Shown one piece after another: positions 13,192 to 38,127 of a stretch of 48,625 nucleotides of DNA; the first letter of the stretch is position 1; every line of letters starts with the position of its first letter. The position numbers were made by a program, and so were the translations under genes. The notes under the pieces were generated by a model. That model saw only the letters and a program-made list of their open reading frames with translations, made no database searches and was not told the origin of the DNA. The stretch is from an uncultured Alphaproteobacteria bacterium (lineage in GTDB: Bacteria > Pseudomonadota > Alphaproteobacteria > Thalassobaculales > Thalassobaculaceae), in contig CACITD010000016.1 in assembly GCA_902589475.1 (NCBI GenBank), forward strand, positions 1 to 48,625, in the 5' to 3' direction.

Positions 13192-14325
13192 CTAAGCTAA
13201 AAGGTCATCGATTTTACTTTGCATTACGCCGGCATTTCTTGCTGCATTTAGGATATCTTTCCAAGCTTCTTTCGCTAAAGGAACCCCACCTTTCAGTCTA
13301 TCGGCCATCACTTGTCGCTCTTTTTCCCCAGGTATCAAAACCACTCCGCCTGGTTCAGTAGGCCGTGAACTTTTAAGGAACTCCACGTAAGCTCTTACTT
13401 CGCTCACAAATGAGTCGTCACTATGGCCAAATGCTTCTGGGGATAGGTAAATAGAGAACATGCCATTACAAAATCTTCTTTTAGGCTCATTAATCGTTCC
13501 CGCACAGCCGGATCCTGTCAAGGCCCCTGCCATCATTTCCATAAGAAAGTTTAAACCGGACCCCTTATGATTTCCAAAAGCTCTCAGCGCACCTGATCCG
13601 TTATTTGGGTTTGGAAACATACCCTGCTTTGTTTCCCCGTAGAGCGGTTTGGGGTCTCCTGTAATTGTTCCATCTTCAGATACTATCGCATCTTCTGGTA
13701 AAGGTTTCCCGCCTTTAAGTGCTACAAGCGCCTTCCCTTCAGCCACTACTGAAGTTGCCATGTCGAGTATTATTGGTTCATCTCCATTGTCTAATGGGAT
13801 CCCTGCGCAGAATGGTGAGGTACTCATGCGCCTTTCGATACCCCCGAATGGAGCAACAATCAAACTCCCTCTAACATTAACCATGTGTATAGACACTAAT
13901 CCTTTTTCTGCCGCTCTTTCAGCCCAATCCCCAATTCGGCCCAAATGACCAGCGTTTTGCAGTGCTGTGATGGCAAGCCCATTGTTGAGAGCTTTTTTGA
14001 TGCCAATATCTACCGCTTGTTCGCCTACGGTTTGTCCAAAACCAAATTTACCATCTATGACTGCAAGCGTTTCATTTTCTATCTTTATATCGACAGTGAC
14101 ATTAGGTATTTGCGTACCTTCTTCTATGTAATTTGCGTATCTTGGTGCTCTAATCACGCCGTGGCTATCATGTCCGCGGAGGTTGGCACCAGCTAATCTC
14201 TCAGCAATTCGCGTTGCCTCCAACTCTGAACAGCCCAACTTGAAGAAGGTTTCTGAAATGACAGCTTTTAAAGGGGTCACTTTGACCGTAACTGATCCAT
14301 CGGCATTCTCTACTAATGATGACAT
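13192..14325 (-). CDS. Ldh family (malate/L-sulfolactate-type) NAD(P) dehydrogenase
   Basis: Member of the Ldh_2 family, which includes malate, ureidoglycolate and (R)-sulfolactate (ComC) dehydrogenases, 377 residues. The catalytic signature RGHDSHGVIRAPRY is at about residues 50-63. The cofactor region GIKKALNNGLAITALQNAGHLGRIG and the FGGIERRMSTSP and DMATSVVAEGK segments are typical. I chose ATG 14325, which has AAAGG eight bases upstream; a longer frame from 14373 overlaps the aldolase gene. It is last of four genes: RraA-like, D-2-hydroxyacid dehydrogenase, aldolase, Ldh. Co-occurrence with a D-2-hydroxyacid dehydrogenase of opposite stereospecificity and ComDE-like genes recalls sulfolactate racemisation, but the substrate is not proven. 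Confidence 0.85.
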   Translation of the reverse strand: MSSLVENADGSVTVKVTPLKAVISETFFKLGCSELEATRIAERLAGANLRGHDSHGVIRAPRYANYIEEGTQIPNVTVDIKIENETLAVIDGKFGFGQTVGEQAVDIGIKKALNNGLAITALQNAGHLGRIGDWAERAAEKGLVSIHMVNVRGSLIVAPFGGIERRMSTSPFCAGIPLDNGDEPIILDMATSVVAEGKALVALKGGKPLPEDAIVSEDGTITGDPKPLYGETKQGMFPNPNNGSGALRAFGNHKGSGLNFLMEMMAGALTGSGCAGTINEPKRRFCNGMFSIYLSPEAFGHSDDSFVSEVRAYVEFLKSSRPTEPGGVVLIPGEKERQVMADRLKGGVPLAKEAWKDILNAARNAGVMQSKIDDLLA

Positions 14326-14338
14326 GACAAAACCTTTT

Positions 14339-15091
14339 TTATGATCGAACTGCATTGATTTGTGATGTGACAACTTGTGTCAATAAACGAACGTCATTTG
14401 ATAGTGATGCGAAATCAAAACCACATTCGTACATTTTTTTTATGTAGTCGGGGTCCATGCAATGAAGTCCTGCACGAATGCCTGACGCTTTCGCTGTCGT
14501 TAAAACATGCTGAATAGCATCATAGACCTTACCAGGTCCTCTATCGAGCCCAGGTCCTTCGCCCATAGAAATAGCTAGATCGCTTGGCCCAACGTAAATG
14601 CCGGTCAAGCCCGGTGTGGAGCATATTGCTTCGGCGTTTTCAACTGCTTGTTCCGTTTCAATCATTGCTAGGCTGATAATCTGATCATTGGCAGAGTTAT
14701 GATAATCAGGGTGAATTATATTAGCTCTAACTGGGCCTGAGCTTCTATATCCATCTGGAGAATAGAGCGTCGCACCGACAAATTCTTCTGCTTCCTCTCT
14801 TGAGTTAATCATGGGGCAAATAATGCCCATCGCTCCAGCGTCTAGTAATTTCATAATAATACCCGCTTCTAACCAAGGCACTCGGCAGAGCATCGTTGCA
14901 TCACTCGCTGACATAGCCTGCATCATTGGAACAGCTATAGAATAGTCGGTGAGGCCGTGTTGTAGATCGATGGTAATGGAGTCAAAGTTTTGGTGCGACA
15001 TAATTTCCGCAGAAAAGGTGCTAGGGATGGCGAGCCACCCGTTTAGTGCAGGTTTTCCAGTGTTCCAAGTTTCTCTAAGTCTATTTATCAT
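14339..15091 (-). CDS. HpcH/HpaI family class II aldolase
   Basis: Metal-dependent pyruvate aldolase of the HpcH/HpaI (citrate-lyase-like) fold, 250 residues. It cleaves 2-oxo-4-hydroxy acids to pyruvate or oxaloacetate and an aldehyde. Signatures seen are SITIDLQHGLTDY, GAMGIICPMINSREEAEEFV, the metal-ligand stretch SLAMIETEQAVENAEAI and the TPGLTGIYVGPSDLAIS loop. A Shine-Dalgarno AGGGGAG precedes the ATG. It lies 25 bases after the D-2-hydroxyacid dehydrogenase and 13 before the Ldh gene, so it is within an operon. With a 2-keto-3-deoxygluconate-type kinase divergent nearby, a 2-keto-3-deoxy acid is a reasonable substrate class (inference). Confidence 0.87.
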   Translation of the reverse strand: MINRLRETWNTGKPALNGWLAIPSTFSAEIMSHQNFDSITIDLQHGLTDYSIAVPMMQAMSASDATMLCRVPWLEAGIIMKLLDAGAMGIICPMINSREEAEEFVGATLYSPDGYRSSGPVRANIIHPDYHNSANDQIISLAMIETEQAVENAEAICSTPGLTGIYVGPSDLAISMGEGPGLDRGPGKVYDAIQHVLTTAKASGIRAGLHCMDPDYIKKMYECGFDFASLSNDVRLLTQVVTSQINAVRS

Positions 15092-15116
15092 AACGCTTCT
15101 CCCCTTAATTCAAATT

Positions 15117-16109
15117 TTATCCAGATGAACTCAATACACTTTGGTTCACCACACATTCGGGATCAATATTCCCATCAAATACTCTTAAAACATTGTCTAC
15201 TGTTTGGGTTGCCATTCGTTGCGTGGACTCGACTGTAACGCCCGCTATGTGAGGACTAAGTAAAACGTTTTTTAAACTAAATAGAGGGTGATCCGCCGCT
15301 GAGGGTTCACTAAGCAGTACATCAAGTCCCGCGCCTTTTATTTCACCACTTATTAGCGCTTGATATAGTGCATGTTCGTCTATTATTCCGCCCCGAGCAC
15401 AGTTTACGATAAAGGCATGCGGTTTCATTTCTTTAAATTCAGCCTCGGAAAACATATTAGTCGTCTCTTCGGTTTTCATGCAATGTATCGCCACGGCGTC
15501 CATATCGCCGAGTACTTTTCTGAAGTCACTTACTGGTTCTACATTTGCTGTTTTTAAAATCGCATCATCAACGTATGGGTCGTATCCAAATACTTTCATA
15601 TCAAAACCCAAAGCTCTTTTTGCAACTTGGCGGCCGATACGCCCAAACCCAATAATTAAAAGGTTTTTCCCGTCTAAATCGACTGCGCGAGTCGGAAATC
15701 GAGGTCCCCAATCATCGTTTCGCGTTACCCCATCATAGTAAAAAATGTCTTTTGCTAACCCTAACAAGAGAGCCATTGCTTGTTCTGCAACGGATATCAT
15801 ATTTGAGTGAATAGCTATGCAAAGCGGAATGTTCCGTTCATTTAAGGTATTCAGGTCAACAGCATCGTATCCCACTCCATGTCGAGAAACGACCATGAGG
15901 TCTGGAGCCTGTGACATGATTTTGCGTGTAATCGTCGCACCTCGAACCGTCATGGCATGAACATCTTTTGCAGCTTCAGCGATAACATTCTCATCAAGCG
16001 AGTCACACTCTATTATTTCGATATCGTCTCTTGCCTTTAGCATTTCCATGCCAGCTGGATGAAGTGGTTGGATTACTAAAACCCGTTTTTTATTTGTATT
16101 TATAGCCAT
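15117..16109 (-). CDS. D-isomer-specific 2-hydroxyacid dehydrogenase
   Basis: NAD-dependent dehydrogenase of the phosphoglycerate dehydrogenase family, 330 residues without the regulatory ACT domain of biosynthetic SerA. The Rossmann motif is IIGFGRIGRQVAKRA. Catalytic Arg lies in NCARGGIIDE, Glu in LDVLLSEPS and His in LSPHIAG. The ATG at 16109 has GAGG six bases upstream; the longer frame from TTG 16121 is less likely. It starts 8 bases after the RraA-like gene ends. Related enzymes include (S)-sulfolactate dehydrogenase SlcC as well as hydroxypyruvate and glyoxylate reductases. Pairing with an Ldh-family gene is consistent with interconversion of two hydroxyacid enantiomers through a shared oxoacid. 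Confidence 0.86.
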   Translation of the reverse strand: MAINTNKKRVLVIQPLHPAGMEMLKARDDIEIIECDSLDENVIAEAAKDVHAMTVRGATITRKIMSQAPDLMVVSRHGVGYDAVDLNTLNERNIPLCIAIHSNMISVAEQAMALLLGLAKDIFYYDGVTRNDDWGPRFPTRAVDLDGKNLLIIGFGRIGRQVAKRALGFDMKVFGYDPYVDDAILKTANVEPVSDFRKVLGDMDAVAIHCMKTEETTNMFSEAEFKEMKPHAFIVNCARGGIIDEHALYQALISGEIKGAGLDVLLSEPSAADHPLFSLKNVLLSPHIAGVTVESTQRMATQTVDNVLRVFDGNIDPECVVNQSVLSSSG

Positions 16110-16117
16110 TTTTATCC

Positions 16118-16825
16118 TCAATGTATCTCAGCAGAATCAGCCATTGCTTTTTTTAATATTTCGACATTAAAACCAGGAGATCGAGCGACTTCAAGAATTA
16201 CGGCTTCTCTACGGGTCAGAACATCGATAGCAGATGGCAGTTCTTTCACACACTCTTCTGGAACTACGACTGCGCCATGTCGATCGGCATGAATGATATC
16301 ATTTGGTTTTACTGCCATTCCAAAAATATTGACTTCACACTCAATGGCAACAAGATGGACCCATGCATGACTTGGGGCTACCTTTCCACCTAAAAGTTGA
16401 AAGCCGGGCGCGCATGCATCTATATCGCGAAACGAGCCATTTGTTACTACACCTAAACATCCCAATCCTTTGTGAATAGCGGTGTTTACTTCTCCCCAAA
16501 AAGCGCCAAACCCTGGGGTGGGGTCAAGGTCTTGAATGACGCTTATCGAAGGGTTAGGCGGCGCTGAGATAGTTTCATAGTATCGAGCTCTCATTTCTCT
16601 TATATCTTCTGGTTTCCCTTCAGGGGGTGTCATCGAGCGTATCATCGCGGTTCTAGCATATCCAATGATTGGGGGTAACGAAGGATCAAAACACTGCATC
16701 TGCTCAACGGTGAAGCTTTTTACGCGGTATTCCGAACTTAAATGTTCCAGACCATTGCAGATAGTCGGAGTATCCCATTCCGTCAATTTATTCAGGTCAG
16801 CAGCAGTCAAATCAGTTTTTGCCAT
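16118..16825 (-). CDS. RraA family protein (HMG/CHA-type aldolase-decarboxylase-like)
   Basis: RraA-like fold protein of 235 residues. Family members cleave 4-hydroxy-4-methyl-2-oxoglutarate or decarboxylate oxaloacetate with a divalent metal, while E. coli RraA itself regulates RNase E. The substrate and metal loop reads GCLGVVTNGSFRDIDAC. The Arg-Asp of the catalytic signature is kept, but the usual DG before it is NG. The GEVNTAIHKGLG helix and the GMAVKPNDIIHADRHGAVVVPEE segment are clear. AGAGG precedes the ATG. It is first in the four-gene minus-strand operon and divergent from the sugar-acid kinase, which argues for a catabolic aldolase or decarboxylase role rather than RNase control. 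Confidence 0.83.
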   Translation of the reverse strand: MAKTDLTAADLNKLTEWDTPTICNGLEHLSSEYRVKSFTVEQMQCFDPSLPPIIGYARTAMIRSMTPPEGKPEDIREMRARYYETISAPPNPSISVIQDLDPTPGFGAFWGEVNTAIHKGLGCLGVVTNGSFRDIDACAPGFQLLGGKVAPSHAWVHLVAIECEVNIFGMAVKPNDIIHADRHGAVVVPEECVKELPSAIDVLTRREAVILEVARSPGFNVEILKKAMADSAEIH

Positions 16826-16850
16826 TTCAGCCTCTTGATAAAAGTTATTA

Positions 16851-16871
16851 GGATTGCGATGTTAGCAATCC
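16851..16871. promoter_or_regulatory. Perfect dyad GGATTGC-N7-GCAATCC, candidate operator
   Basis: Seven-base perfect inverted repeat with a 7-base spacer, lying 26 bases upstream of the RraA-like gene in the spacer shared with the divergent kinase gene. A second palindrome, TTTGATCAAA, is at 16905-16914 closer to the kinase. The position and symmetry suit a repressor or activator dimer site; the factor is not encoded in this window. Confidence 0.4.
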
Positions 16872-16951
16872 GCCGCAGATAAAGTTAGGGCTGAATAAAA
16901 ATATTTTGATCAAATCATAGCTACGATTTTATAGAAAAGTTGAGGGGCATT

Positions 16952-17884
16952 GTGTCCGGTGATATAGATATCAGTTGTGTAGGTGAGCCTATGGTTGAAT
17001 TCACTCGCCTCAAAAAAAGCGTTGAACAAAATTACTATATCCAAAGTTTGGGTGGTGATACATCTAACTGCGCCATAGCTGCTGCACGCCAGGGTGCCAA
17101 AGTAGCCTACATTACCGCTGTCGGAGATGACCGCTTTGGTCGCTTTGCAATAGATTTTTGGATAAAAGAAAATATTGACGTGTCTGGTGTTTCGGTTTTC
17201 GCCGATTATCCAACAGGAATTTATTTCATAGAACCTGCTGGTAATGCGCGCGACTTCACCTATTACCGAAAAGGGTCGGCTGCGAGTATGATGACGTCAG
17301 AAAATTTTCCCGTGGAAATAATCTCGAAATCGAAATTTCTACATCTTTCGGCAATTAGTCAAGCTATAAGCAATACAGCATTGCAAACATGTGCGTACGC
17401 TATAAATCTTGCAAAGCAAAATGCCGTTAAAATTTCGTACGACACGAATTTGCGATTAAATCTCTTGGATCTTAAAAGCGCGCGGAAACTGATACACGAG
17501 ACCGCCAAGACAGCTGATATACTTCTCCCCAGCCTTGATGAGGCACGTTTGCTAAGTGGAAAACAATCGATTAGAGATATTGTGGAGTATTATATCAAAT
17601 TTGGGCCGGACATTTTGGCATTGAAGTGTGGTGATCAGGGGGCAGTGATCGCTTATAAAAATAAAATCGAGTTTTTACCCCCACTAAAAGTTAATGCAAT
17701 TGATACGAGTGGGGCGGGCGATACCTTTGATGGCGCATTTCTCTCACGATTAGCCTCAGGATATTCGCCATTTGATGCAGGAGAATATGCTGTGACTGCA
17801 GCAGGGCTTTCGGTAAAAGGATACGGTGCTGTTAAAGCTATTCCTGCCAGAAAAAGAGTTTTAAAGGAAAACGCAAACAAGTGA
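16952..17884 (+). CDS. PfkB family carbohydrate kinase, 2-keto-3-deoxygluconate kinase-like
   Basis: Ribokinase-fold kinase of 310 residues that phosphorylates a sugar or sugar acid with ATP. The N-terminal substrate region GGDTSNCAIAAARQGAKVAY resembles 2-keto-3-deoxygluconate kinases. The C-terminal PfkB signature DTSGAGDTFDGAF holds the catalytic Asp and anion hole. The start is taken as GTG 16952 with GAGGGG four bases upstream; a TTG at 16940 would lie inside that ribosome-binding stretch. It is divergent from the RraA-aldolase operon and converges on the MFS gene with a 14-base gap. The context suggests entry of a 2-keto-3-deoxy acid, but phosphorylated and non-phosphorylated aldol cleavage both remain possible. 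Confidence 0.82.
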   Translation: MSGDIDISCVGEPMVEFTRLKKSVEQNYYIQSLGGDTSNCAIAAARQGAKVAYITAVGDDRFGRFAIDFWIKENIDVSGVSVFADYPTGIYFIEPAGNARDFTYYRKGSAASMMTSENFPVEIISKSKFLHLSAISQAISNTALQTCAYAINLAKQNAVKISYDTNLRLNLLDLKSARKLIHETAKTADILLPSLDEARLLSGKQSIRDIVEYYIKFGPDILALKCGDQGAVIAYKNKIEFLPPLKVNAIDTSGAGDTFDGAFLSRLASGYSPFDAGEYAVTAAGLSVKGYGAVKAIPARKRVLKENANK

Positions 17885-17898
17885 AAAAATGTCGTGGG

Positions 17899-19104
17899 TT
17901 ATTTAGGAGTGCGGGTAATCTTAGCTCCGGATTTTACAATAAAAAACATTGCCAATAAAGCTATAATAATAGTTAGAAAAAAGGTTATATTATATGCTCC
18001 TACGATGGAATAGCCGGCGCTGAATAAAAGTGGCCCAATAAAAACGCCCGAAAAAGTAATAAAAAAGCTTGCCCCAGTGGTTTTACTAACATCGCTCTTA
18101 GGCGACAACCGTACAATTTCGCTTGCATAGACACCATTCCATCCCATACCAGCAATACCGAAGACAAAACAAAGTGAAAATACTAACACTGGAGGCCATT
18201 GTGGCGACAAAGTGATTGTTATAACGGCACAAATCGTGGCAATCAAAGCTATGACCATTAAGGTCAAGCGGCCATTGTTAATTTTATCTGCAACCCACCC
18301 CCACGTCACTCTTCCGAAGATACTTGAAAACTGAATTACAGATAACCCCAATCCAGCTAGAACAAGTGAATACCCTATATCTTCTACCAACATCGTAACG
18401 GTATATGTTGTCAAAGTAGTTTGGACTGCCCCCATGCACATACCATATAAAGCAACCCATCGCAGCGAGGTTAGCCGCCAAACGAGTTTAAGGTCGGCTA
18501 ATGGGTTTCGAAGCAGGGTTACATTACTTGACCTATCGCTGTCCCATTGGCTTCGGAAAGGTTGCATTGTAAGGCAAAGTGCTGCAGCGACTGCCACTGA
18601 AAATAGCATACTTTTTTGCCATCCAAACTCTAAGGCGAGTTGTGGAGCAAAAATACCGGCAAGCACCCCGCCAATGGGAACGCCCGTAAATCGAATTGAG
18701 AAGATAAGGTTTCTATTTTTCTGCGTTACTACTTTTGATAACAAATGTGAGGCAGGTGGGGTTAGCATGCCGTAAGCCCATCCGAGAATCATTGAGCCCA
18801 GGGCAATTAAAAATAAAGATCCTCCCATAAACATTAAATGGGAAATGCCTATCAAAAAAAGTGCTAACTGAGAGGTTCTCCAGGCACCAAACCTTGTAAC
18901 GAACCCCCCGGCAAATAGGCTGGATATCATTGCAAAAATATAAAGTATTAAGACGGGATACGCTATCAAGGAGGCATTTAACCCTACGTCATCGGCCACC
19001 TCAGGAGCTATCGCCGGCAACCAAAAACCTGCCACGGCCCCGGTCCCTTGAACCAGGATTAAAAACCCCACGACGATAAACGTATCAAGTCGTGAGTTAG
19101 TCAT
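17899..19104 (-). CDS. MFS transporter, CynX/NimT-like
   Basis: Twelve-segment major facilitator protein of 401 residues. The loop between helices 2 and 3 carries GGFVTRFGAWRTSQ in the place of the usual MFS A motif. A second copy between helices 8 and 9 reads GRVTWGWVADKINNGRL. It probably imports or exports a small organic anion. It is last of the comD-comE-mfs unit, 17 bases after comE. No Shine-Dalgarno precedes its ATG; nearly all of the gap is a perfect 14-base palindrome (19107-19120). Linkage to a ThDP decarboxylase suggests its cargo is the decarboxylase substrate or a precursor (inference). Confidence 0.85.
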   Translation of the reverse strand: MTNSRLDTFIVVGFLILVQGTGAVAGFWLPAIAPEVADDVGLNASLIAYPVLILYIFAMISSLFAGGFVTRFGAWRTSQLALFLIGISHLMFMGGSLFLIALGSMILGWAYGMLTPPASHLLSKVVTQKNRNLIFSIRFTGVPIGGVLAGIFAPQLALEFGWQKSMLFSVAVAAALCLTMQPFRSQWDSDRSSNVTLLRNPLADLKLVWRLTSLRWVALYGMCMGAVQTTLTTYTVTMLVEDIGYSLVLAGLGLSVIQFSSIFGRVTWGWVADKINNGRLTLMVIALIATICAVITITLSPQWPPVLVFSLCFVFGIAGMGWNGVYASEIVRLSPKSDVSKTTGASFFITFSGVFIGPLLFSAGYSIVGAYNITFFLTIIIALLAMFFIVKSGAKITRTPK

Positions 19105-19106
19105 TT

Positions 19107-19120
19107 ACAGAATATTCTGT
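19107..19120. promoter_or_regulatory. Perfect 14-bp palindrome ACAGAATATTCTGT
   Basis: Fills the comE-MFS gap, beginning two bases upstream of the MFS ATG on the minus strand, where a Shine-Dalgarno would normally be. It could be an operator or an RNA element affecting MFS translation. Symmetry and place are seen; function is inferred. Confidence 0.4.
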
Positions 19121-19121
19121 C

Positions 19122-19721
19122 CTAGGTTACATGCAAAGCCGCGGTTGACCCTAACACAGCTTGTCTAAACCTCGTTTTGATGTAAACGCCATCTCTTGAA
19201 GGTAAAACTAATTTGGGTTTTGTACTCTCGACCTTGATGCTAGCAACAAGAGGTAGCGGTGATGTTTTTAATGCGTTTATTAAATTATTGAGGTCCTCAT
19301 CATTATGGACGGTCATTGTGGTTGGGATACCGGCTCCAGCTGCCATAGCCGCTAGGTCTGTGCCACCCGATGTATGGGTTTTTTGCATGCCTGTTTCACC
19401 ATAGTGTTCATTGTCAAGAATTATAATTACTAAGTTGTCTGGTCTTTGGTTTGCAACGGTCGCAAAAGATCCCACTCCCATTAGTGCTTCACCATCGCCA
19501 GTAATTACCCAGACGTTCCTTTTGGGTTGAGCTAGAGCACAGCCTAATCCCATTGATATAGCACAGCCCATACCACCCCAATTATAAAAGTTTTCAGGTT
19601 GATGGTCTGATGCGGCGAGGTCCCAAACAGGAGAACCAAGTCCTGCAATAGCAAGCGCATTTCCCCGGACTTCCATTAACTTATTCAAAACGTCACTACG
19701 ATTTAACTTAGTTATCGACAT
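19122..19721 (-). CDS. ThDP-dependent decarboxylase beta subunit, sulfopyruvate decarboxylase ComE-like
   Basis: Pyrophosphate-binding half of a split thiamine-diphosphate decarboxylase, 199 residues. The ThDP motif starts GDGEALMG (Gly75) and ends with Asn104 in ILDNEHYGETG, the normal length of about 30 residues. GGMGCAISMGLGCALAQP precedes it as in ComE and phosphonopyruvate decarboxylase. Its reading frame starts 14 bases inside the end of the alpha-subunit gene, with GAGG six bases before the ATG, so production is likely coupled one-to-one. Family members turn 3-sulfopyruvate or 3-phosphonopyruvate into the matching acetaldehyde. No sulfonate- or phosphonate-specific partner is nearby, so a different 3-substituted pyruvate is possible. 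Confidence 0.83.
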   Translation of the reverse strand: MSITKLNRSDVLNKLMEVRGNALAIAGLGSPVWDLAASDHQPENFYNWGGMGCAISMGLGCALAQPKRNVWVITGDGEALMGVGSFATVANQRPDNLVIIILDNEHYGETGMQKTHTSGGTDLAAMAAGAGIPTTMTVHNDEDLNNLINALKTSPLPLVASIKVESTKPKLVLPSRDGVYIKTRFRQAVLGSTAALHVT

Positions 19722-20259
19722 TTATTACCTCCTCTGCCACATCAGCTATGAACGACTTGGCACCAATCAGTTTTTGGCCAATTAGAATAGCCACGGCGGC
19801 ATTTGATACAAATGCCATTTTCAGCCCGGCTTCAATCGCCTCAGCGGCCTCATCGTCAGTCTCTACCTCAAAAACATGCATGCCTAGACTTTTAAGGACG
19901 GGTGCTACAGCTTGGCCCATCGGCATTTGCCATGGGTTCGACTCCCCATATTGTCCTCGCATCGTAACAATCATAAAAAGGGGGAACTGACAGGAGCTAA
20001 CTATTGATGCAATTGCGTTAACTGTATTTCCAACACCACTACTTTGCATCAAAACCGCCGCCTTCTCACCCCCTAGCCACGCACCTGACGATAAGCCTAT
20101 ACCTTCTTCTTCTGTCGTCATTACAACGGATTTTATATCGTTATCGGCATGGCAGCTCTTAATCAATTCTGTGAGACCGGCATCGGGTACATAACCTACC
20201 GTCCTTATATTATGTTTTTTAAAAAGGCGATGTGCCGCTGTAGTCCATGGTTCGGCCAT
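19708..20259 (-). CDS. ThDP-dependent decarboxylase alpha subunit, sulfopyruvate decarboxylase ComD-like
   Basis: Pyrimidine-binding half of the split decarboxylase, 183 residues. It has the early substrate loop GYVPDAGLTELI and the ThDP-activating glutamate region TTEEEGIGLSSGAWLGG (Glu50-52). The conserved QSSGVGNTVNAIASI and TMRGQYGESNPWQ segments follow. Together with the downstream beta subunit (14-base overlap) it forms a complete enzyme. It is divergent from the molybdoenzyme gene across a 206-base spacer. Acetolactate synthases and benzoylformate decarboxylases are single-chain and longer, so the ComDE/Ppd group fits best. I see no Shine-Dalgarno before this ATG. Confidence 0.83.
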   Translation of the reverse strand: MAEPWTTAAHRLFKKHNIRTVGYVPDAGLTELIKSCHADNDIKSVVMTTEEEGIGLSSGAWLGGEKAAVLMQSSGVGNTVNAIASIVSSCQFPLFMIVTMRGQYGESNPWQMPMGQAVAPVLKSLGMHVFEVETDDEAAEAIEAGLKMAFVSNAAVAILIGQKLIGAKSFIADVAEEVINVDN

Positions 20260-20465: not shown

Positions 20466-22799
20466 ATGCTATTAGATACAGATAAAAATCGACCAATAGC
20501 TACAACGGCACATTGGGGTACTTATTATGCCGAGGTAGAGAATGGTAAACTAACTGGTCTGCGAGATTATGAAAAAGACCCATCACCATCGATTATTGGC
20601 CAGGGAATTCTTGAAGCGTTGGATGATAAAGTACGGGTGCGACGCCCAATGGTTCGAAAAAGCTTCCTAGAAAATGGTAAGAGCTCGAATAGAAAACTTC
20701 GGGGTAAAGAGCCATTTGTTGCAGTGTCGTGGGAAAAAGCCTTGGACTTGGCCGCAGGTGAGATCGATAGAGTTAGAAATGATTTCGGTAATAAGTCAAT
20801 TTTTGGAGGTTCTTATGGATGGGCAAGTTCTGGTAGATTTCATCATGCGCAGAGCCAGGTCCACCGTTTTTTAAATACTATTGGCGGGTACGTGGCTCAT
20901 AAGAATAGCTACAGCCATGCTGCAGCCGAGGTGATTTTGCCACATATAGTAGCAGAAATGAAACCGATCATTTTTGATCAAGCCACTCAGTGGCCTGATA
21001 TAGCTTCGGAGTGTGAGCTAATTGTTGCATTTGGTGGGTTGCCCCATAAAAACGCGCAAGTGAATTTAGGGGGCGTTGGGCGGCATACGTTGCATGAGGA
21101 AATGAATAATTGTTATGAATCCGGAATAGAATTCGTAAACATAAGTCCGCTTAAAAGCGATATAGCCGAGCATTTTGAACCAGAATGGATTGGCATTCGA
21201 CCAAATACGGATGCAGCATTAATGCTTGCAATTGCTTATGTACTTTTAAATGAGTCGTTGTATGACGAGAGTTTTATAAAAAAATATACTGTTGGGCTCG
21301 ATAAGTTTATCCCCTATGTCAATGGTATAGAAGACGGTTGCCCAAAAAACCCATTATGGGCCTCTAAGATTACGGGAGTACCAGTTGAAACTATCATTGA
21401 GTTGGCCTATCGGATGGCCGAGTGTCGAACGATGATCATGACCGCATGGAGCTTGCAGCGTGGTGATCACGGGGAGCAACCTATTTGGTTAACTGTTGTT
21501 TTGGCTGCGCTGTTGGGTCAAATAGGATTGCCTGGAGGTGGATTTGGAATTGGCTATGGTTGCGAAAACGGGGTAGGGAACGCCGTTAAATACCATAGAT
21601 GGCCAGCCCTCTCTCAAGGTGTTAATAAGGTGTCCGAATTCATTCCGGTTGCTCGTATCGCCGATATGTTGCTTTCACCAAATAAGGTCTTTGATTACGA
21701 TGGGAAGAAGTTGAAGTATCCCGATATTAAGCTAGTTTATTGGGCGGGAGGTAACCCGTTTCACCACCATCAAGACCTTTCCAGATTGATAGAGGCGTTC
21801 ACCAAACCGGAATGTATAATAGTTAACGAAATTTGGTGGACCTCAACGGCTCGCCATGCCGATATAGTTTTTCCAATCACCACAGCGCTTGAGCGAAACG
21901 ACCTAATGATAACCAAATGGGAGCAAACGGCCTCGCCAATGCATAGAGCTATTGACCCAATTGGTGAAAGTAAAAATGACTATGATGTTTTTACAGAATT
22001 ATCTACTCGCCTTGGTTGCTGGGAAGAGTTCACAGAGGGGCGTGACGAGGAAGGATGGTTAAGACATTTATGGGATCAAGCAAGACAGCAGGCTGGACGG
22101 GCAGGCTTTGAACTTCCAGATTTTGAAGCTTTCTGGGCTATGGGACCAGTTGAACTTCTCAAACCAGACAAACCTAGTATTCTTCTGAGCGAGTTTCGAG
22201 AGGCCCCTGAGAAAAACCCTTTATCTACGCCATCCGGGAAAATAGAGATATTTTCAGAAGTTATAGACAAATTTGGCTATGATGATTGCAAAGGATGTCC
22301 TGTCTGGATGGAGCCCATAGAATGGTTAGGAAGTGAAAGTGCAAAAGAGTTTCCATTGCACTTAATCTCAAATCAACCGAGTACACGCTTGCACAGTCAG
22401 TTAGATAGCGGTGGGATCAGTAAAGGGAGTAAAATAAAGGATCGCGAGCCCATGGTAATGCACCCTGATGATGCTGAAAAAAGAGGAATTCAAACCGGCG
22501 ATGTTGTCAGAGTTCACAATAAAAGAGGTAGCTGCTTAGCAGGCGTAAACATCTCCACCAATATTTTACCTGGTGTGATCCAATTAGCAACAGGGGCTTG
22601 GTTTGATCCCCTTCACGGTGATGATGGAAGTTTACTTTGCAGGCACGGTAATCCTAACGTTTTAACTCGGGATGAAGGTACATCTAAACTGGCGCAGGGA
22701 CCGACGGCGCATTCTACACTCGTAGAAGTCGAGAAATATGCCAGCACCCCTCCGGCGGTAGAAGCTCACGAGGCACCAACCATTTCTGATTCCATCTAA
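20466..22799 (+). CDS. Cytosolic molybdopterin oxidoreductase, biotin sulfoxide/DMSO reductase type
   Basis: Molybdenum enzyme of the DMSO reductase family, 777 residues, most like BisC/TorZ proteins that reduce S- or N-oxides. There is no twin-arginine signal and no N-terminal cysteine cluster. It is therefore cytosolic and lacks the extra [4Fe-4S]. Ser116 in FGGSYGWASSGRFHHAQSQ is at the position of the Mo-ligand serine in this group. Later blocks WAGGNPFHHHQDL and ETTALERND-like (TTALERNDL) match pterin-binding regions. The C-terminal domain with HPDDAEKRGIQTGDVVRV is the usual molydopterin dinucleotide-binding domain. AAGGTGG precedes the ATG. It heads the operon with an SDR, an aminopropyltransferase-like gene and a ligase. 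The electron donor and oxide substrate are unknown. Confidence 0.85.
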   Translation: MLLDTDKNRPIATTAHWGTYYAEVENGKLTGLRDYEKDPSPSIIGQGILEALDDKVRVRRPMVRKSFLENGKSSNRKLRGKEPFVAVSWEKALDLAAGEIDRVRNDFGNKSIFGGSYGWASSGRFHHAQSQVHRFLNTIGGYVAHKNSYSHAAAEVILPHIVAEMKPIIFDQATQWPDIASECELIVAFGGLPHKNAQVNLGGVGRHTLHEEMNNCYESGIEFVNISPLKSDIAEHFEPEWIGIRPNTDAALMLAIAYVLLNESLYDESFIKKYTVGLDKFIPYVNGIEDGCPKNPLWASKITGVPVETIIELAYRMAECRTMIMTAWSLQRGDHGEQPIWLTVVLAALLGQIGLPGGGFGIGYGCENGVGNAVKYHRWPALSQGVNKVSEFIPVARIADMLLSPNKVFDYDGKKLKYPDIKLVYWAGGNPFHHHQDLSRLIEAFTKPECIIVNEIWWTSTARHADIVFPITTALERNDLMITKWEQTASPMHRAIDPIGESKNDYDVFTELSTRLGCWEEFTEGRDEEGWLRHLWDQARQQAGRAGFELPDFEAFWAMGPVELLKPDKPSILLSEFREAPEKNPLSTPSGKIEIFSEVIDKFGYDDCKGCPVWMEPIEWLGSESAKEFPLHLISNQPSTRLHSQLDSGGISKGSKIKDREPMVMHPDDAEKRGIQTGDVVRVHNKRGSCLAGVNISTNILPGVIQLATGAWFDPLHGDDGSLLCRHGNPNVLTRDEGTSKLAQGPTAHSTLVEVEKYASTPPAVEAHEAPTISDSI

Positions 22800-22800
22800 C

Positions 22801-23586
22801 ATGGTAGGCATCGATTTAACTGGCAGAAATGTGCTGATAACTGGCGGCGCTAGCGGAATAGGAAAGGCGAGTGCAAAATCTTTTGCCGCTAGCGGTGCTC
22901 GTGTGGCAGTCACGGATATAGATAGGGATGGAATTCAAGAGATTATCCGAGGACTAGGAAACGAGCACTTTGCTATTGATGGTGATATTTCCAATAAAAA
23001 CGATATTGATAAAATCATTAAAGCAGCGGGCGAGGCTCTTGGCAAAATTGATATATTAATAAATTCTGCCGGTGTATCCGATGTAATAATGTCTACCGTT
23101 GATCAAGAAGTTGAAACTTGGCAACGCATTATAGATATTAATCTCACAGGAACTTTCTTGGCGAGCCAGGCGGTTGCTCCCGATATGTTGAAAAGGGGAA
23201 ATGGATGTATCGTGAATGTAAGCTCGATTGCTGGCCTGGTTGGTTTACCTCGGCGTAATGCCTATACCGCCTCTAAACATGGCGTCGCGGGAATAACTAA
23301 AACACTCGCGGCAGAATGGGGAATCAGCGGTGTTAGAGTGAATGCTGTCGCTCCAGGTTACGTGCTAACGCCGATGGTCGCTGATCTTATAAGTAGTGGT
23401 AAGTTAGATGAAAAAAATCTTATGAGGCGCACGCCGCTGGGCCGACTGGCTTCTCCCAACGAGATAGCAGAAGTTATTCTTTTTTTAGCCTCAAAATTAG
23501 CATCCTATATAAACGGGGCTATTATACCAGTAGATGGTGGATACACGGCCTACGGGGCTGCTGGACCTGCTGTTGAGATAGAATGA
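22801..23586 (+). CDS. Short-chain dehydrogenase/reductase
   Basis: Classical SDR of 261 residues. The cofactor motif is TGGASGIG (about 14-21), followed by ILINSAGVSD. Ser in NVSSIAG and the YTASK active site are present, as is the VNAVAPGYVLTPM segment. An Asp at the end of beta-2 (VAVTDIDRDG) favours NAD over NADP. The ATG starts one base after the molybdoenzyme stop, so the two are translated from one message and probably act on the same or consecutive intermediates. The specific alcohol is not predictable. A second, less similar SDR is at 38128. Confidence 0.9.
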   Translation: MVGIDLTGRNVLITGGASGIGKASAKSFAASGARVAVTDIDRDGIQEIIRGLGNEHFAIDGDISNKNDIDKIIKAAGEALGKIDILINSAGVSDVIMSTVDQEVETWQRIIDINLTGTFLASQAVAPDMLKRGNGCIVNVSSIAGLVGLPRRNAYTASKHGVAGITKTLAAEWGISGVRVNAVAPGYVLTPMVADLISSGKLDEKNLMRRTPLGRLASPNEIAEVILFLASKLASYINGAIIPVDGGYTAYGAAGPAVEIE

Positions 23587-32017: not shown

Positions 32018-32980
32018 TTACGCAACCAATAGTCTTTCAATAATTTTCTGAACAGACAGTGCTGTGCGGGCGTCAGCCAATGGCTGGGGACGGCCTTCTA
32101 GAAGGTTGACTATATTATCTAGCTGCCGCTGCAATGTTTCCGTGCGCGGGTCTGATTGAGTTTTTGAAATCGTTGACCATTTTTCGTTTTCAGAAATTTC
32201 CAATAGGTAGAAGTCACTTATTTTAGCGCTTTTTTTTGCACCCCAAATGGTGATTTCTTGCCTGTCCGGACCATGACCACCACATGACCCAAAAATATTT
32301 ATCGGTATTGTTCCACATACCAATTTTGCCTGTAGGTGTGTTTCGCATAACGCAGAATCATCTGGGTAGGTGGGGTGTGAGAAATTTACCTTAGCTTCGC
32401 CAAACAATCTTTCTACTACAAAAATGAAATGTGATAGCACTTCGCGAATATAACCGCCAGAAGCTTTAAACCGGAGCCAGTCTGCCTCCACTTGCCAAGT
32501 TCTTGGCCATTGTTGATATTGTAAAATTATATCTACACCTTCGACTTTTCCGAGCTCGTCATTATTCAAAAGTTCTTGAACTTCCTCTATCGCTTCACTT
32601 GAGGCTTGAACAAAATTAACTGCATTAATGTGGTCCTTTTGTTCTAAGAGTTCAACGAGGCCCTCACTCCCCTGAACATCAACACCAAGAGGTTTTTCTA
32701 GATATAGTGGAATTGAAGCGTCTATTGCTTGTAAAGCATATTGCTTGTGAAATTCTGGGGGGCATGCGATGTAGAGGAGATCAGGTTTAACCCCGTTTAT
32801 AAGTTGCTCGGGCGTCTCGCTATAATGTATATCCTGAAATTCTTGCTTTGTTGCTGTTAACGATTTGCTAGATGGATCCCACACTGAAGAGACTTTGAAT
32901 GCCGGATGTTTAGCAAAGTTCGCTATCATTCGTCGACCCATAATTCCTAATCCTATAATTCCGGCATTATATTGCTTCAT
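32018..32980 (-). CDS. Gfo/Idh/MocA family oxidoreductase
   Basis: NAD(P)-dependent oxidoreductase of 320 residues. The N-terminal Rossmann motif is GIIGLGIMGRRMI, the signature Lys is in LYLEKPLGV, and the C-terminal alpha/beta domain contains WLRFKASGGYIREVLSHFIF. Family members act on sugars, inositols, trans-dihydrodiols and biliverdin. ATG 32980 is chosen because TAGGA lies six bases upstream; ATG 32986 is too close to it. It is transcribed in the same direction as the gamma-glutamyltransferase-like gene (47 bases upstream), possibly as one unit. No substrate can be named. Confidence 0.84.
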   Translation of the reverse strand: MKQYNAGIIGLGIMGRRMIANFAKHPAFKVSSVWDPSSKSLTATKQEFQDIHYSETPEQLINGVKPDLLYIACPPEFHKQYALQAIDASIPLYLEKPLGVDVQGSEGLVELLEQKDHINAVNFVQASSEAIEEVQELLNNDELGKVEGVDIILQYQQWPRTWQVEADWLRFKASGGYIREVLSHFIFVVERLFGEAKVNFSHPTYPDDSALCETHLQAKLVCGTIPINIFGSCGGHGPDRQEITIWGAKKSAKISDFYLLEISENEKWSTISKTQSDPRTETLQRQLDNIVNLLEGRPQPLADARTALSVQKIIERLLVA

Positions 32981-33027
32981 GAACATTCCTAATTAGTGAT
33001 AAATGTATCTTGTTTAGTTTAAGGGAC

Positions 33028-34608
33028 TTAATAGCCCATTGCGCAACCATCTTTGCGCGGCTCGGAGCCGCCAATTAGTACACCGTCTTCGTGATTAATC
33101 CAGATACATTGGCTTCCACCAAGAGGTTTACTCAACTTTTCAATCTGGTGTCCTCTATTTGTTAAATCGGTAAAGATACTAGGTGAAAAGTTCTCTTCCA
33201 TTTGAAGTTGCTGGTTAGTGGCAAAACTTCTTGGTTGATCCATCGCTTGCTGCACATCGAGACCAAGGTCCAAAACATTACTGATAAAATTAGCGTGACC
33301 CGCAGATTGGTACTGTCCACCCATCACGCCGAATGGAGCAATAGTTTTTGCATCTTTTGTTACCATGCCGGGGATAATTGTGTGCATAGGGCGTTTCCCG
33401 CCTTCAATACAATTAACATGATCTGGATTGAGGTTAAAAGATGAACCACGATTTTGTAAAACAATACCTGTTTTTTCTGCCATGATACCTGAGCCAAAAC
33501 CAGAAAATAAGGAATTGATAAAAGAGATTGCGTTCCCGTTGACGTCAACACAGCATAGGTACGTCGTGTCGGTATGGCTTGGAAAATCAGAGGGGCCATA
33601 AGATTTTGCTTTAGCCATATCTATCTGTTTCTGAAGCGTACCAATATGTTCATCTGAAAGTAACCAATCTACCGGTATTTCATTGAATGACGGATCGGAG
33701 ATATAGGCATCTCTTTGATGATAAGCCAATTTAGTAGCCTCGGCGAGTAAGTGTATTCGATCTGCCTCGTTTAGACTTTCTATATTATAGTGACTGAGAA
33801 TTCGCAATATAATTAAAGCACAGATACCCTGACCATTTGGCGGGCATTCGTTGATAGTATGGTTGTTGTATGAGACGCTGATAGGTTCGACATAATCTGC
33901 AACACATGATGCGAAGTCATCTAGCGTATGAAGGCCGCCCAACTTATTTAGCCGAGTAACCATATCTTCAGCTATTTCATCAGTATAGAATGCGTCTCTG
34001 CCACCCTTGGCAATTGCTGCTAAAGTCCTTCCTAGCAGCGGTTGCGCAAATGTTGTCCCTGCTTTTGGAGCCGCTCCCCTAACGGTTAATATTTTACTCG
34101 ATACTTCATCACCTAAAAGTTTTGGTAGATTGTCCGCCCAATCAAGTGCCACCCTAGGTGCTACAGGAAAGCCATTTTCAGCATAATTTATGGCAGACCG
34201 TAAAAGCTCTGTTAGGTCTTTTGTTCCATAATCTGTATTAAGTTGTGTCCAAGCGGCGATAGCCCCTGGAACGTTCACGGCATGCGGAGTTTCTACCTCT
34301 ATTTGTTCTATCCCTCTATCTCTCAAGTTATCAGCATTAGCTGCAGCAGGTGATTTTCCTGAGCCATTTAAAGCGATTGGTTTTGAGGAGTTATAGGGAC
34401 TGTAAAGAACGAAACAATCTCCTCCAATTCCGGTCATGGCTGGTTCGACTACACATAGAGTTGCACAGGCGGCAATAGCTGCATCAACGGCGTTTCCCCC
34501 AGATTTTAACACATCAATGCCGGCCTGTGTTGCTAGTGGGTGACTAGTTGAAACCATAGCTGAGGGGGCCATAACTGGAGAACGGCCCGGGAAGTGAAAA
34601 TTTCGCAT
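33028..34608 (-). CDS. Gamma-glutamyltransferase-like Ntn hydrolase, cytosolic
   Basis: Ntn-type autoprocessing hydrolase of the gamma-glutamyltransferase family, 526 residues, with no signal peptide, unlike periplasmic E. coli GGT. It has MVSTSHPLATQAGIDVLKSGGN, GIGGDCFVLY and the cleavage/nucleophile site HTDTTYLCCVD. There the Thr at 348 is the expected nucleophile, and the usual THxxVxD His is Tyr, as in YwrD-like members. The motifs MHTIIPGM and PFGVMGGQYQSAGH form the small subunit pocket. The start is ATG 34608; TTG 34614 is in frame. It could hydrolyse imported gamma-glutamyl compounds or be an acylase of another specificity. It follows the TRAP transporter genes after a terminator. 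Confidence 0.85.
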   Translation of the reverse strand: MRNFHFPGRSPVMAPSAMVSTSHPLATQAGIDVLKSGGNAVDAAIAACATLCVVEPAMTGIGGDCFVLYSPYNSSKPIALNGSGKSPAAANADNLRDRGIEQIEVETPHAVNVPGAIAAWTQLNTDYGTKDLTELLRSAINYAENGFPVAPRVALDWADNLPKLLGDEVSSKILTVRGAAPKAGTTFAQPLLGRTLAAIAKGGRDAFYTDEIAEDMVTRLNKLGGLHTLDDFASCVADYVEPISVSYNNHTINECPPNGQGICALIILRILSHYNIESLNEADRIHLLAEATKLAYHQRDAYISDPSFNEIPVDWLLSDEHIGTLQKQIDMAKAKSYGPSDFPSHTDTTYLCCVDVNGNAISFINSLFSGFGSGIMAEKTGIVLQNRGSSFNLNPDHVNCIEGGKRPMHTIIPGMVTKDAKTIAPFGVMGGQYQSAGHANFISNVLDLGLDVQQAMDQPRSFATNQQLQMEENFSPSIFTDLTNRGHQIEKLSKPLGGSQCIWINHEDGVLIGGSEPRKDGCAMGY

Positions 34609-34640
34609 AACCAAATTCCAAACTTACTTTTATTCATCTC

Positions 34641-34690
34641 CCGAAATAAAACATTCCCCTATGTCAATTAAGCAATAGGGGAATGTTTCA
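34641..34690 (-). terminator. Rho-independent terminator after the TRAP transporter genes
   Basis: Perfect 14-base stem (34649-34662 with 34675-34688), 12-base loop, and on the minus strand a T-rich tail (TTTTATTT) just downstream. It ends the TAXI-TRAP transcript 34 bases after the permease stop. It separates it from the gamma-glutamyltransferase-like gene, which therefore needs its own promoter or read-through. Confidence 0.75.
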
Positions 34691-34722
34691 TATAATACCA
34701 AAGTTGAGGGCATTAAAATGAA

Positions 34723-36702
34723 CTAGTTTGCGGGACTTAATTTGCGCGCGAGTACAGCTAGCAAAATAGCTCCTCCAGTCAGAACTAGTCCTATAATGAA
34801 CAAATCTAGGTTTCCTAGCCCGACGACGTCATTTCCCGGCATTGCAAATGATAACGCCCCAATTAATAAAGCCAATCTAATTGGCCATTGGATAACACCC
34901 ATGCCTGTTAGATCTCCAACTCCGTAAAGATAACCTTGCAAACTAGTTGAAAGAACGATTACGCCTAGGATTGCGCAACTAAATACGGTTAAAATATGTA
35001 GTGGTTCTCCCTGCATTATCAGGCCGGGGTCTAGAACAAAGAAGAACGGAACAAAATATATAATTGTCCCTAGCTTCATTGATTCAAACCCTGTTCGCAT
35101 TGGATTTGCTTGAGCCAAACTTGCTGCAGCAAATGACCCTAATGCAACAGGCGGCGTAATATACGAGAGCATACCCCAATACAACATGAACATATGAACT
35201 CCCATTAGCGACAAGCCGCTATCTGTGAGTGCTGGCGCGAGTGTTAAAGCTAAGATGATATAAGCTACAGTTACTGTCACGCCAATGCCCATAATGAAAC
35301 TTGCTAGCGCGCCGAGTATCAATAATAGGGCAACATTGTTTCCGGCAAGCTGCAACAGTTCGAAAGCTAATGTTCCTATTTTACCAGAATAGGAGAGAGA
35401 TCCTACAATAAGACCAATTCCCACTAAAATTGCCGCTAGTTCAGCAAACAGACGTCCAGTAGCAAGCAGGAAGTCGACGAAGCGTTCCCAATTCCAGCGA
35501 TGTTTGGGATGCAGCTGGTTAATTATTAGCAATAGTGCCGTTGCATAAAAAGGAGCTTGTGCTTCCCGTTGCATGAAAACCAAAAGGTAAATAAGTAATG
35601 CAAAAACGGCTACATAGTACCAACCGTCTTTAAGTGTTTGGCTAACAGTTGGAAGCTCGACTTTTGGTAGGCCTTCGAGTTTGTTTTTCGCGGCATATCC
35701 ATCTATCTGCATGAACAAGGCGAAAAAATACAGTACAGATGGAATCACAGCTGCAACAACGATATCGCGATATGGGACTTCAAGATTGATTGCCATTATA
35801 AAAGCGGTTGCACCCATGATAGGCGGCATAAGAACGCCGCCTGTTGAAGCGCAAGCTTCAACACCACCTGCCACGTGTGGTTTAAATCCGATTCTTTTCA
35901 TAGCTGGAATCGAAAGGGCACCTGTCGTGAGAACATTTGTTATCACACTGCCACTCATAGAGCCCATTAACCCAGATGCAAAAATCGCAACTTTAGCCGG
36001 GCCACCACGAACATACCCCAAAAGAGAAAAAGCTAAATTGAGAAAAAATTGCCCGCCGCCTGTATATTGCAGCGCAACTCCAAATAATAGAAACCCTATT
36101 ACTAAACCCGCAAACGCTCTTGTTGGAATACCGATTAATGCTTCTGTGGAAAGTGCATAATATGCAACTGTATCCCAAAGTGTTTCACTAGTGCCCTCCA
36201 GAACTCCGGGCATACTTCCTGCGACGAGAGGATAGACAGCAAAAATTACAATGATGATCGTAACGACCCCACCACCGGTCCTTCGCACGCCTTCTATCGC
36301 TAAAAGAACAAGCGCTAAACTTAGCCATTGCATTTTTTCTGGCGCTGAAAATTCCCATCCCTCGTCTAGCATATCTATGGAGTAATAGACGAAGACAAGA
36401 CAAATGGCTCCCGTTGCCAGGAATAATAGAATATCGTACCACGTCATGCCTTCTTTTCCTCGCTTAGAGGAAACAGGAAATACAATAAAGGCTGTTGGAA
36501 GAAGCAGTGCTACTATTGCGTAAAAATACTGGTTTTCAATTGGAACGTAACCAGTAAAACGACCTAGGTTGAACACCTGATAAGCCGAAAATACAACGGA
36601 CGATACCGATAGAATTGTTAGGACCCACTGCCAAAATGGAGTGAGCCGGCGAAACCGTTGCTCGGTGTTCGCCGGCTCAACTTGTGTGTCAGCACTAGAC
36701 AT
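34723..36702 (-). CDS. TRAP transporter fused permease (4TM/12TM), TAXI type
   Basis: Fused small (DctQ-like) and large (DctM-like) membrane subunits of a TAXI-type TRAP transporter, 659 residues with many membrane segments. The N-terminal part spans about 30-130. The large subunit starts near RTGGGVVTIIIVIFAVYP and shows FASGLMGSMSGSVITNVLTTG and STGGVLMPPIMGATAFIMA, the conserved core loops. A late stretch SYITPPVALGSFAAASLAQAN is typical. It works with the binding protein encoded 28 bases upstream, using an ion gradient to import an organic anion such as a dicarboxylate or amino-acid-like compound. The transcript ends at a clear terminator. Confidence 0.93.
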   Translation of the reverse strand: MSSADTQVEPANTEQRFRRLTPFWQWVLTILSVSSVVFSAYQVFNLGRFTGYVPIENQYFYAIVALLLPTAFIVFPVSSKRGKEGMTWYDILLFLATGAICLVFVYYSIDMLDEGWEFSAPEKMQWLSLALVLLAIEGVRRTGGGVVTIIIVIFAVYPLVAGSMPGVLEGTSETLWDTVAYYALSTEALIGIPTRAFAGLVIGFLLFGVALQYTGGGQFFLNLAFSLLGYVRGGPAKVAIFASGLMGSMSGSVITNVLTTGALSIPAMKRIGFKPHVAGGVEACASTGGVLMPPIMGATAFIMAINLEVPYRDIVVAAVIPSVLYFFALFMQIDGYAAKNKLEGLPKVELPTVSQTLKDGWYYVAVFALLIYLLVFMQREAQAPFYATALLLIINQLHPKHRWNWERFVDFLLATGRLFAELAAILVGIGLIVGSLSYSGKIGTLAFELLQLAGNNVALLLILGALASFIMGIGVTVTVAYIILALTLAPALTDSGLSLMGVHMFMLYWGMLSYITPPVALGSFAAASLAQANPMRTGFESMKLGTIIYFVPFFFVLDPGLIMQGEPLHILTVFSCAILGVIVLSTSLQGYLYGVGDLTGMGVIQWPIRLALLIGALSFAMPGNDVVGLGNLDLFIIGLVLTGGAILLAVLARKLSPAN

Positions 36703-36730
36703 TTTTACACTTTAATGTTTCAAGCTGTGC

Positions 36731-37882: not shown

Positions 37883-38127
37883 ATATTCCTCCCAGTTTAA
37901 ACTTTGAAGCAAAAAACGGCTTGCCCCAATTTAGTAAAAGAACACTGCAATATCTCAGCAAACCTTGCAAGAGTAGATAGTTTTTTTTTTATCTTTAGTT
38001 AAGGGGCAGTAATTGCTCTATCAAAGTATCGAGTAAGTGAACTTTTACGTTGCACCGTAATGAGATTTTGACATTTGTTAGCCTCTAATAAACGCTTCAA
38101 AAAAAATTCTAAACATTGGAGAGCGAA

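Follow-up and report, generated by a model that had tools for sequence, protein, structure and literature searches.

Two independently inherited gene modules, probably not one sulfonate-degrading pathway, at a Thalassobaculaceae locus

Thiamin diphosphate (ThDP) decarboxylases split into alpha and beta subunits include the sulfopyruvate decarboxylase ComDE and the phosphonopyruvate decarboxylase RhiEF, and the sulfolactate enzymes ComC and SlcC belong to the Ldh2 family and to the D-2-hydroxyacid dehydrogenases, respectively. In riboflavin catabolism the split ThDP enzyme LumKL is a thiamin-dependent heterocycle decarboxylase (PMC12746152), and since its substrates are heterocyclic acids, likeness to ComDE says little about what a given pair of subunits decarboxylates. 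Among HpcH/HpaI aldolases, the hydroxyketoacid aldolase SwHKA accepts hydroxypyruvate and fluoropyruvate in vitro, and its active-site residues have been named (PMC10099721). Members of these families are encoded side by side in a 48,625-nucleotide stretch of DNA from an uncultured alphaproteobacterium of the family Thalassobaculaceae (GenBank assembly GCA_902589475.1, contig CACITD010000016.1, positions 1 to 48,625; hereafter the window), where a preliminary description grouped eight genes into a sulfolactate-like block with a single substrate. These genes are two independently inherited modules with different neighbours, not one set. The reading that we favour, with a probability of roughly 0.65, is that they are two independent catabolic modules that became neighbours in one Thalassobaculaceae branch, module B acting on a sugar-acid-type substrate and module A on a 2-oxo acid.

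The separation is seen in gene order, which was compared across genomes of the family from 12 genera (g1 to g12, g1 being that of the window) and their surrounding loci. Named loci from Nisaea denitrificans (L115), Thalassobaculum litoreum (L183) and marine metagenome-assembled genomes identify the family as Thalassobaculaceae. Module B, consisting of a PfkB kinase, an RraA-like protein, a D-2-hydroxyacid dehydrogenase, an HpcH aldolase and an Ldh2 dehydrogenase, is a compact five-gene operon in most genera (for example at L085 and L088 to L097), with no kinase of its type found beside the operon in g2 and g10. It stands alone, away from module A, in g2, g3, g4, g5, g7, g10, g12 and partly in g6, and in several loci (L090, L094 to L098) it adjoins a DctPQM tripartite ATP-independent periplasmic (TRAP) transporter, so that it does not depend on the MFS carrier of module A. 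Module A consists of the ThDP alpha and beta genes together with, in most genera, the MFS gene and a divergent molybdoenzyme gene (L049 to L053, L056 to L058, L063, L064, L067, L069); the MFS gene lies beside the alpha/beta pair in g1, g2, g4, g7, g8 and g11 and a few kb off in others. The two modules are adjacent only in g1, g8, g9 and g11 and lie apart in the eight other genera, at distances of 370 kb in genome G029, at least 0.7 Mb in G024 and 1.19 Mb in G028, the remaining unlinked cases being on different contigs. Alpha and beta adjoin each other in every one of 80 named loci, most of which are from other bacteria, and the module B operon accompanies them in only two (L112 and L113), both within the Thalassobaculaceae and none outside the family. 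The preliminary description had proposed looking for conserved co-occurrence across genomes and had taken unlinked homologues to refute its proposal; such homologues prove to be in the majority, that comparison splits its block into modules A and B, and the idea of one block with one substrate is contradicted.

The idea of a single pathway whose genes became unlinked in most genera, one module supplying the other with an aldehyde or a 2-oxo acid, seems unlikely to us. The adjacency in four genera would fit it, as would the presence of both modules in most family genomes and the recurrence of alpha/beta genes beside a D-2-hydroxyacid dehydrogenase gene in Roseomonas-type loci (L148, L164, L166), but it has to contend with the lack of linkage in two thirds of the genera, with the separate company that each module keeps (the TRAP transporter for B, the molybdoenzyme and MFS carrier for A) and with the occurrence of alpha/beta without the B operon outside the family.

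The eight genes themselves and their arrangement are confirmed, and Pfam assigns each as first described (Table 1). They are laid out as two minus-strand runs (alpha-beta-MFS and RraA-D-2-hydroxyacid dehydrogenase-HpcH-Ldh2) with one plus-strand PfkB gene, the strands having been read correctly from the start. In other species the orthologous genes follow one another in this very order, which puts the arrangement far beyond chance. Gaps inside both operons are short, the alpha and beta genes share 14 bases, and the PfkB gene diverges from the RraA gene across 114 bases. Key active-site residues of the encoded enzymes are intact in alignments, those of the D-2-hydroxyacid dehydrogenase (R/E/H) and of the PfkB kinase (GAGD) having been judged by eye. 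From the sequence, the Ldh2 reading frame is open to a TTG at 14373 but probably begins at the ATG at 14328, just past the preceding stop, and for the D-2-hydroxyacid dehydrogenase the ATG at 16109, likewise just past the preceding stop, is the probable start. The limits first drawn around the block left out the molybdoenzyme, which is a conserved partner of the decarboxylase.

Table 1. Genes of modules A and B and of the adjoining flank in the window.
Feature	Position	Strand	Evidence
Ldh_2-family 2-hydroxyacid dehydrogenase, YbiC-like (module B)	13192..14328	-	Pfam PF02615, 311 bits
HpcH/HpaI class II 2-oxoacid aldolase (module B)	14339..15091	-	Pfam PF03328
D-2-hydroxyacid dehydrogenase, PGDH/hydroxypyruvate-reductase-like (module B)	15117..16121	-	Pfam PF02826/PF00389
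RraA-like protein, class II aldolase/decarboxylase fold (module B)	16118..16825	-	Pfam PF03737
PfkB kinase, 2-keto-3-deoxygluconate-kinase-like (module B)	16940..17884	+	Pfam PF00294
MFS carrier, downstream of the decarboxylase genes (module A)	17899..19104	-	Pfam PF07690
ThDP decarboxylase beta, GDG...N motif (module A)	19122..19721	-	Pfam PF02775 (TPP_enzyme_C)
ThDP decarboxylase alpha, Glu in TTEEEG (module A)	19708..20259	-	Pfam PF02776 (TPP_enzyme_N)
DMSO/TMAO/BisC-type molybdoenzyme (partner of module A)	20466..22799	+	TIGR00509, 1006/1017.55 bits
SDR dehydrogenase, after the molybdoenzyme; kept in part of the family	22801..23586	+	Profile matches, locus comparison

In module A, the ThDP motif of beta and the activating Glu of alpha are conserved among relatives (alignments A1 and A2, respectively). 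ComDE is the best-matching named family for both subunits, despite scores of 143.4 bits for beta against TIGR03846 (cut-off 221.5) and 132.4 bits for alpha against TIGR03845 (cut-off 147.95), and identity to the ComDE of a Leisingera hps-type locus is 26% for alpha and 41% for beta. In a tree of concatenated alpha and beta, rooted on the Leisingera ComDE and including two further ComDE pairs, 14 module A sequences from Thalassobaculaceae fall in one 16-member clade (support 0.96), whose other two members are L054, also from the family, and locus L156; by tree distance, the ComDE of Leisingera, Sulfitobacter and Rhodobacteraceae are the most distant among the sequences checked. The ComDE likeness that had been drawn is not supported, the decarboxylase being far from a ComDE set beside hisD-like, SDR, ADH and TRAP transporter genes, as in the Leisingera locus. 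An aldehyde dehydrogenase gene (cluster e3, named by eye) lies near alpha/beta in 17 of 91 loci elsewhere, usually directly downstream, which is consistent with conversion of a 2-oxo acid to an aldehyde. The window's own genome carries a second alpha/beta pair (G000:C5:39113-39664, L059), 48% and 38-39% identical to the pair in the window; the genes around it are conserved in another genus as well (L074).

These comparisons bear on the possibility of sulfolactate or sulfopyruvate catabolism with ComC, SlcC and ComDE counterparts and an end enzyme elsewhere in the genome, which we regard as very improbable. The family ranking of alpha/beta and the membership of ComC and SlcC in the two dehydrogenase families can be counted for it. 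Against it, all three equivalog cut-offs are missed, including that for ComC (NF040650; 186.4 bits against 500), and the decarboxylase stands on a branch distant from the hps-type ComDE. No Xsc-, SuyAB- or HpsN-like protein was found among the window proteins scanned, as had been stated at the outset; a search via the SAF domain is too unspecific for SuyAB, and nothing SuyAB-like is seen in the window. The suggested search for xsc elsewhere found none in the window's own genome, which at 59% completeness says little on its own, and Xsc is over its cut-off in none of the 20 family genomes with a completeness of 90% or more, a set in which module A is common. Across all 36 genomes one Xsc passes the cut-off (G030:C360:1515-3245, L191). 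The sulfolactate/sulfopyruvate framing is accordingly not supported by these profile and tree comparisons, and the eight genes are probably not one hidden sulfonate-degrading pathway. The preliminary description had itself allowed for a substrate other than sulfolactate, or for a 2-keto-3-deoxy acid, and that part survives: a sulfolactate or sulfopyruvate pathway ending in Xsc is not indicated and a 2-keto-acid or 2-keto-3-deoxy route is the best guess for module B, but not as the work of a single block.

A phosphonate is another candidate substrate for module A. Alpha/beta would then be a phosphonopyruvate decarboxylase, its product phosphonoacetaldehyde passing to PhnX, or being oxidised and cleaved by PhnA, to release phosphate. 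Among solved split enzymes RhiEF (9iz3) comes first for beta and close to first for alpha, a C-P hydrolase is over its curated cut-off in most family genomes, and the two hydrolases are mutually exclusive by genus, with PhnA in g1 (the window's own genome included) and g7 to g11 and PhnX in g2, g3, g4 and g12. PhnA lies about 4 kb from alpha/beta in G013, and a PhnCDE-like ABC transporter stands beside module A in g6. Yet the subunits score 107.5 and 82.1 bits against TIGR03297 (cut-off 312.5), a model built for the fused enzyme; module A is present but PhnX and PhnA are lacking in G034 and in the two 100% complete genomes G008 and G009; and in G017 PhnX sits with PhnW (L229), the usual route from 2-aminoethylphosphonate (2-AEP). 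The PhnA of the window's genome (G000:C32:11537-12751; L222 9529-10767) is on another contig, in a sugar-acid locus with galactarate-dehydratase-like and IlvD-like genes. A link between PhnA and alpha/beta was rejected, since the two are close only in G013. Phosphonate breakdown by module A therefore appears improbable.

Two loci touch on the same subject. In G013 (L054 9461-15572), beta/alpha and PhnA lie within about 6 kb, separated by a LysR regulator, a TauD-like dioxygenase and an MBL-fold gene, and housekeeping genes flank the group. In G028 and G031 (L238/L239), another alpha/beta copy stands by a protein of the PEP-mutase/isocitrate-lyase superfamily, an AMP-ligase-like gene and an SDR. 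Phosphonate biosynthesis was considered there and rejected: the superfamily protein lacks the mutase motif, searched as ED[KRQN]-4 to 6-[NS][STG], which we take to be a loosened form of the mutase signature, and no PEP mutase passes its cut-off in any family genome, both of which also count against the phosphonate reading of module A.

The molybdoenzyme (777 amino acids) diverges from alpha across 206 bases, shows no recognisable signal peptide and has the DMSO reductases 1e18 and 1dms as its closest solved chains. Orthologues occur in 29 of the 36 family genomes, in most of them divergent from or near alpha/beta. Downstream in the window follow the SDR gene, a SpeE-like gene and an acyl-CoA ligase-like gene; in six other loci (L049 to L053, L069) a PehA-like sulfatase/phosphonate-ester hydrolase gene takes the place of the last two. 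For module A we infer that the MFS carrier would most likely take up an anion of the 2-oxo- or 2-hydroxy-acid type and that the split ThDP enzyme would most likely convert a 2-oxo acid to an aldehyde and CO2. For the DMSO-reductase-like enzyme, reduction of an S- or N-oxide within that metabolism is probable.

In module B, the closest solved chain to the Ldh2 dehydrogenase is E. coli 2g8y (E=1e-58), which we take to be the YbiC-type hydroxycarboxylate dehydrogenase, and PRK10098 is missed (309 bits, cut-off 336). Both 2g8y and the archaeal malate dehydrogenase 1v9n outscore the L-sulfolactate dehydrogenase 2x06, and the ComC-like role once suggested for Ldh2 is not supported. The PfkB kinase is closest to the 2-keto-3-deoxygluconate (KDG) kinase 1wye but misses NF040938 (182.5 bits, cut-off 400), the D-2-hydroxyacid dehydrogenase is closest to the phosphoglycerate dehydrogenase (PGDH) 1wwk, and R133-D134 of the RraA-like protein is invariant in 19 relatives (alignment A4). 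Aligned to SwHKA (6r62, E=4e-54), the aldolase keeps Q43, H44, R69, S116, E145 and D171, so that the metal ligands and the catalytic H and R of HpcH/HpaI class II enzymes are conserved. Taken together, a KDG-kinase-like kinase, a PGDH-type dehydrogenase, an Ldh2, an RraA-like protein with its R-D pair and a SwHKA-like aldolase make a sugar-acid or 2-keto-3-deoxy-acid route the simplest one for module B, which would most likely degrade a sugar-acid-derived 4-hydroxy-2-oxo acid. The HpcH aldolase would cleave this acid to pyruvate or hydroxypyruvate and an aldehyde, and the RraA-like protein might be a second aldolase or a beta-keto-acid decarboxylase. Conversion between 2-hydroxy and 2-oxo acids could fall to the two dehydrogenases, which belong to different families, and the kinase may open a phosphorylated 2-keto-3-deoxy exit. 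Outside the family, none of the 20 loci inspected via RraA has the whole five-gene operon; only RraA-Ldh2 pairs recur there (L205, L206, L214). A methylglyoxal synthase-type gene (cluster d3) lies near the kinase and RraA genes in six loci from several genera (L090 to L093, L096, L098).

Several observations weigh against two independent modules with the substrates proposed here. Across the four genera that keep A and B adjacent, kinase identity has fallen to about 52-60%, and linkage may thus be under some selection. The composition of module A also varies somewhat: the molybdoenzyme of G021 and G012 is either distant from alpha/beta or present where alpha/beta is missing, and g10 carries alpha/beta but no molybdoenzyme. 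In the module B aldolase, F210 of SwHKA, which favours hydroxypyruvate, is replaced by His, and pyruvate may therefore be the natural product. The reading of two independent catabolic modules still seems to us the best one. Both modules are uncharacterised and ordinary-looking, with known enzyme folds in combinations not found described; the literature searched on RraA, HpcH and hydroxyacid dehydrogenase pathways held nothing describing the module B set. A bolder proposal, possible but doubtful, makes B a sugar-acid or 2-keto-acid pathway not described before, with two different class II aldolase folds and a two-family pair of 2-hydroxyacid dehydrogenases. In A it would join a split ThDP decarboxylase to a DMSO-reductase-type enzyme of the cytosol in a combination that is likewise new, the substrate being an oxidised 2-oxo acid (an S- or N-oxide).

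The marine bacterial family that keeps these genes has representatives in culture, and the substrates should thus be findable by growth tests of mutants. For the ThDP clade, similarity to 'sulfopyruvate decarboxylase' can suggest sulfonate turnover where Xsc is not found, an annotation effect that bears on metagenome-based claims about the sulfur cycle. Elsewhere in the window (32018-37912), a DctM-domain TRAP permease and an NMT1-like (TAXI-type) binding protein are encoded beside a gamma-glutamyltranspeptidase and a GFO/IDH/MocA oxidoreductase, possibly an uptake locus for a gamma-glutamyl compound.

Set against described systems, the module A pair resembles ComDE and RhiEF in its small adjacent TPP_enzyme_N alpha and TPP_enzyme_C beta subunits, its ThDP motif and its activating Glu, but stays below every curated cut-off, and it differs from ComDE in having ETGMQKTHT for STGDQPTYT in beta and MQSSGVGN for MQNTAIGV in alpha. 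With LumKL, a catabolic split ThDP enzyme whose substrate is neither sulfo- nor phosphonopyruvate, the likeness points to a broad family range, whereas the genes of the lumichrome pathway (P450, amidases, catechol dioxygenase) are not seen near module A. The molybdoenzyme comes nearly to the cut-off for DMSO reductase/BisC (TIGR00509) and differs in being tied by position to a ThDP module, in which such enzymes have no known role. In module B, the YbiC-type Ldh_2 dehydrogenase is the best match of Ldh2, although the latter stays below the PRK10098 equivalog cut-off, and SwHKA is the closest solved homologue of an aldolase that keeps its metal ligands and its H and R positions but has His in place of the active-site F210.

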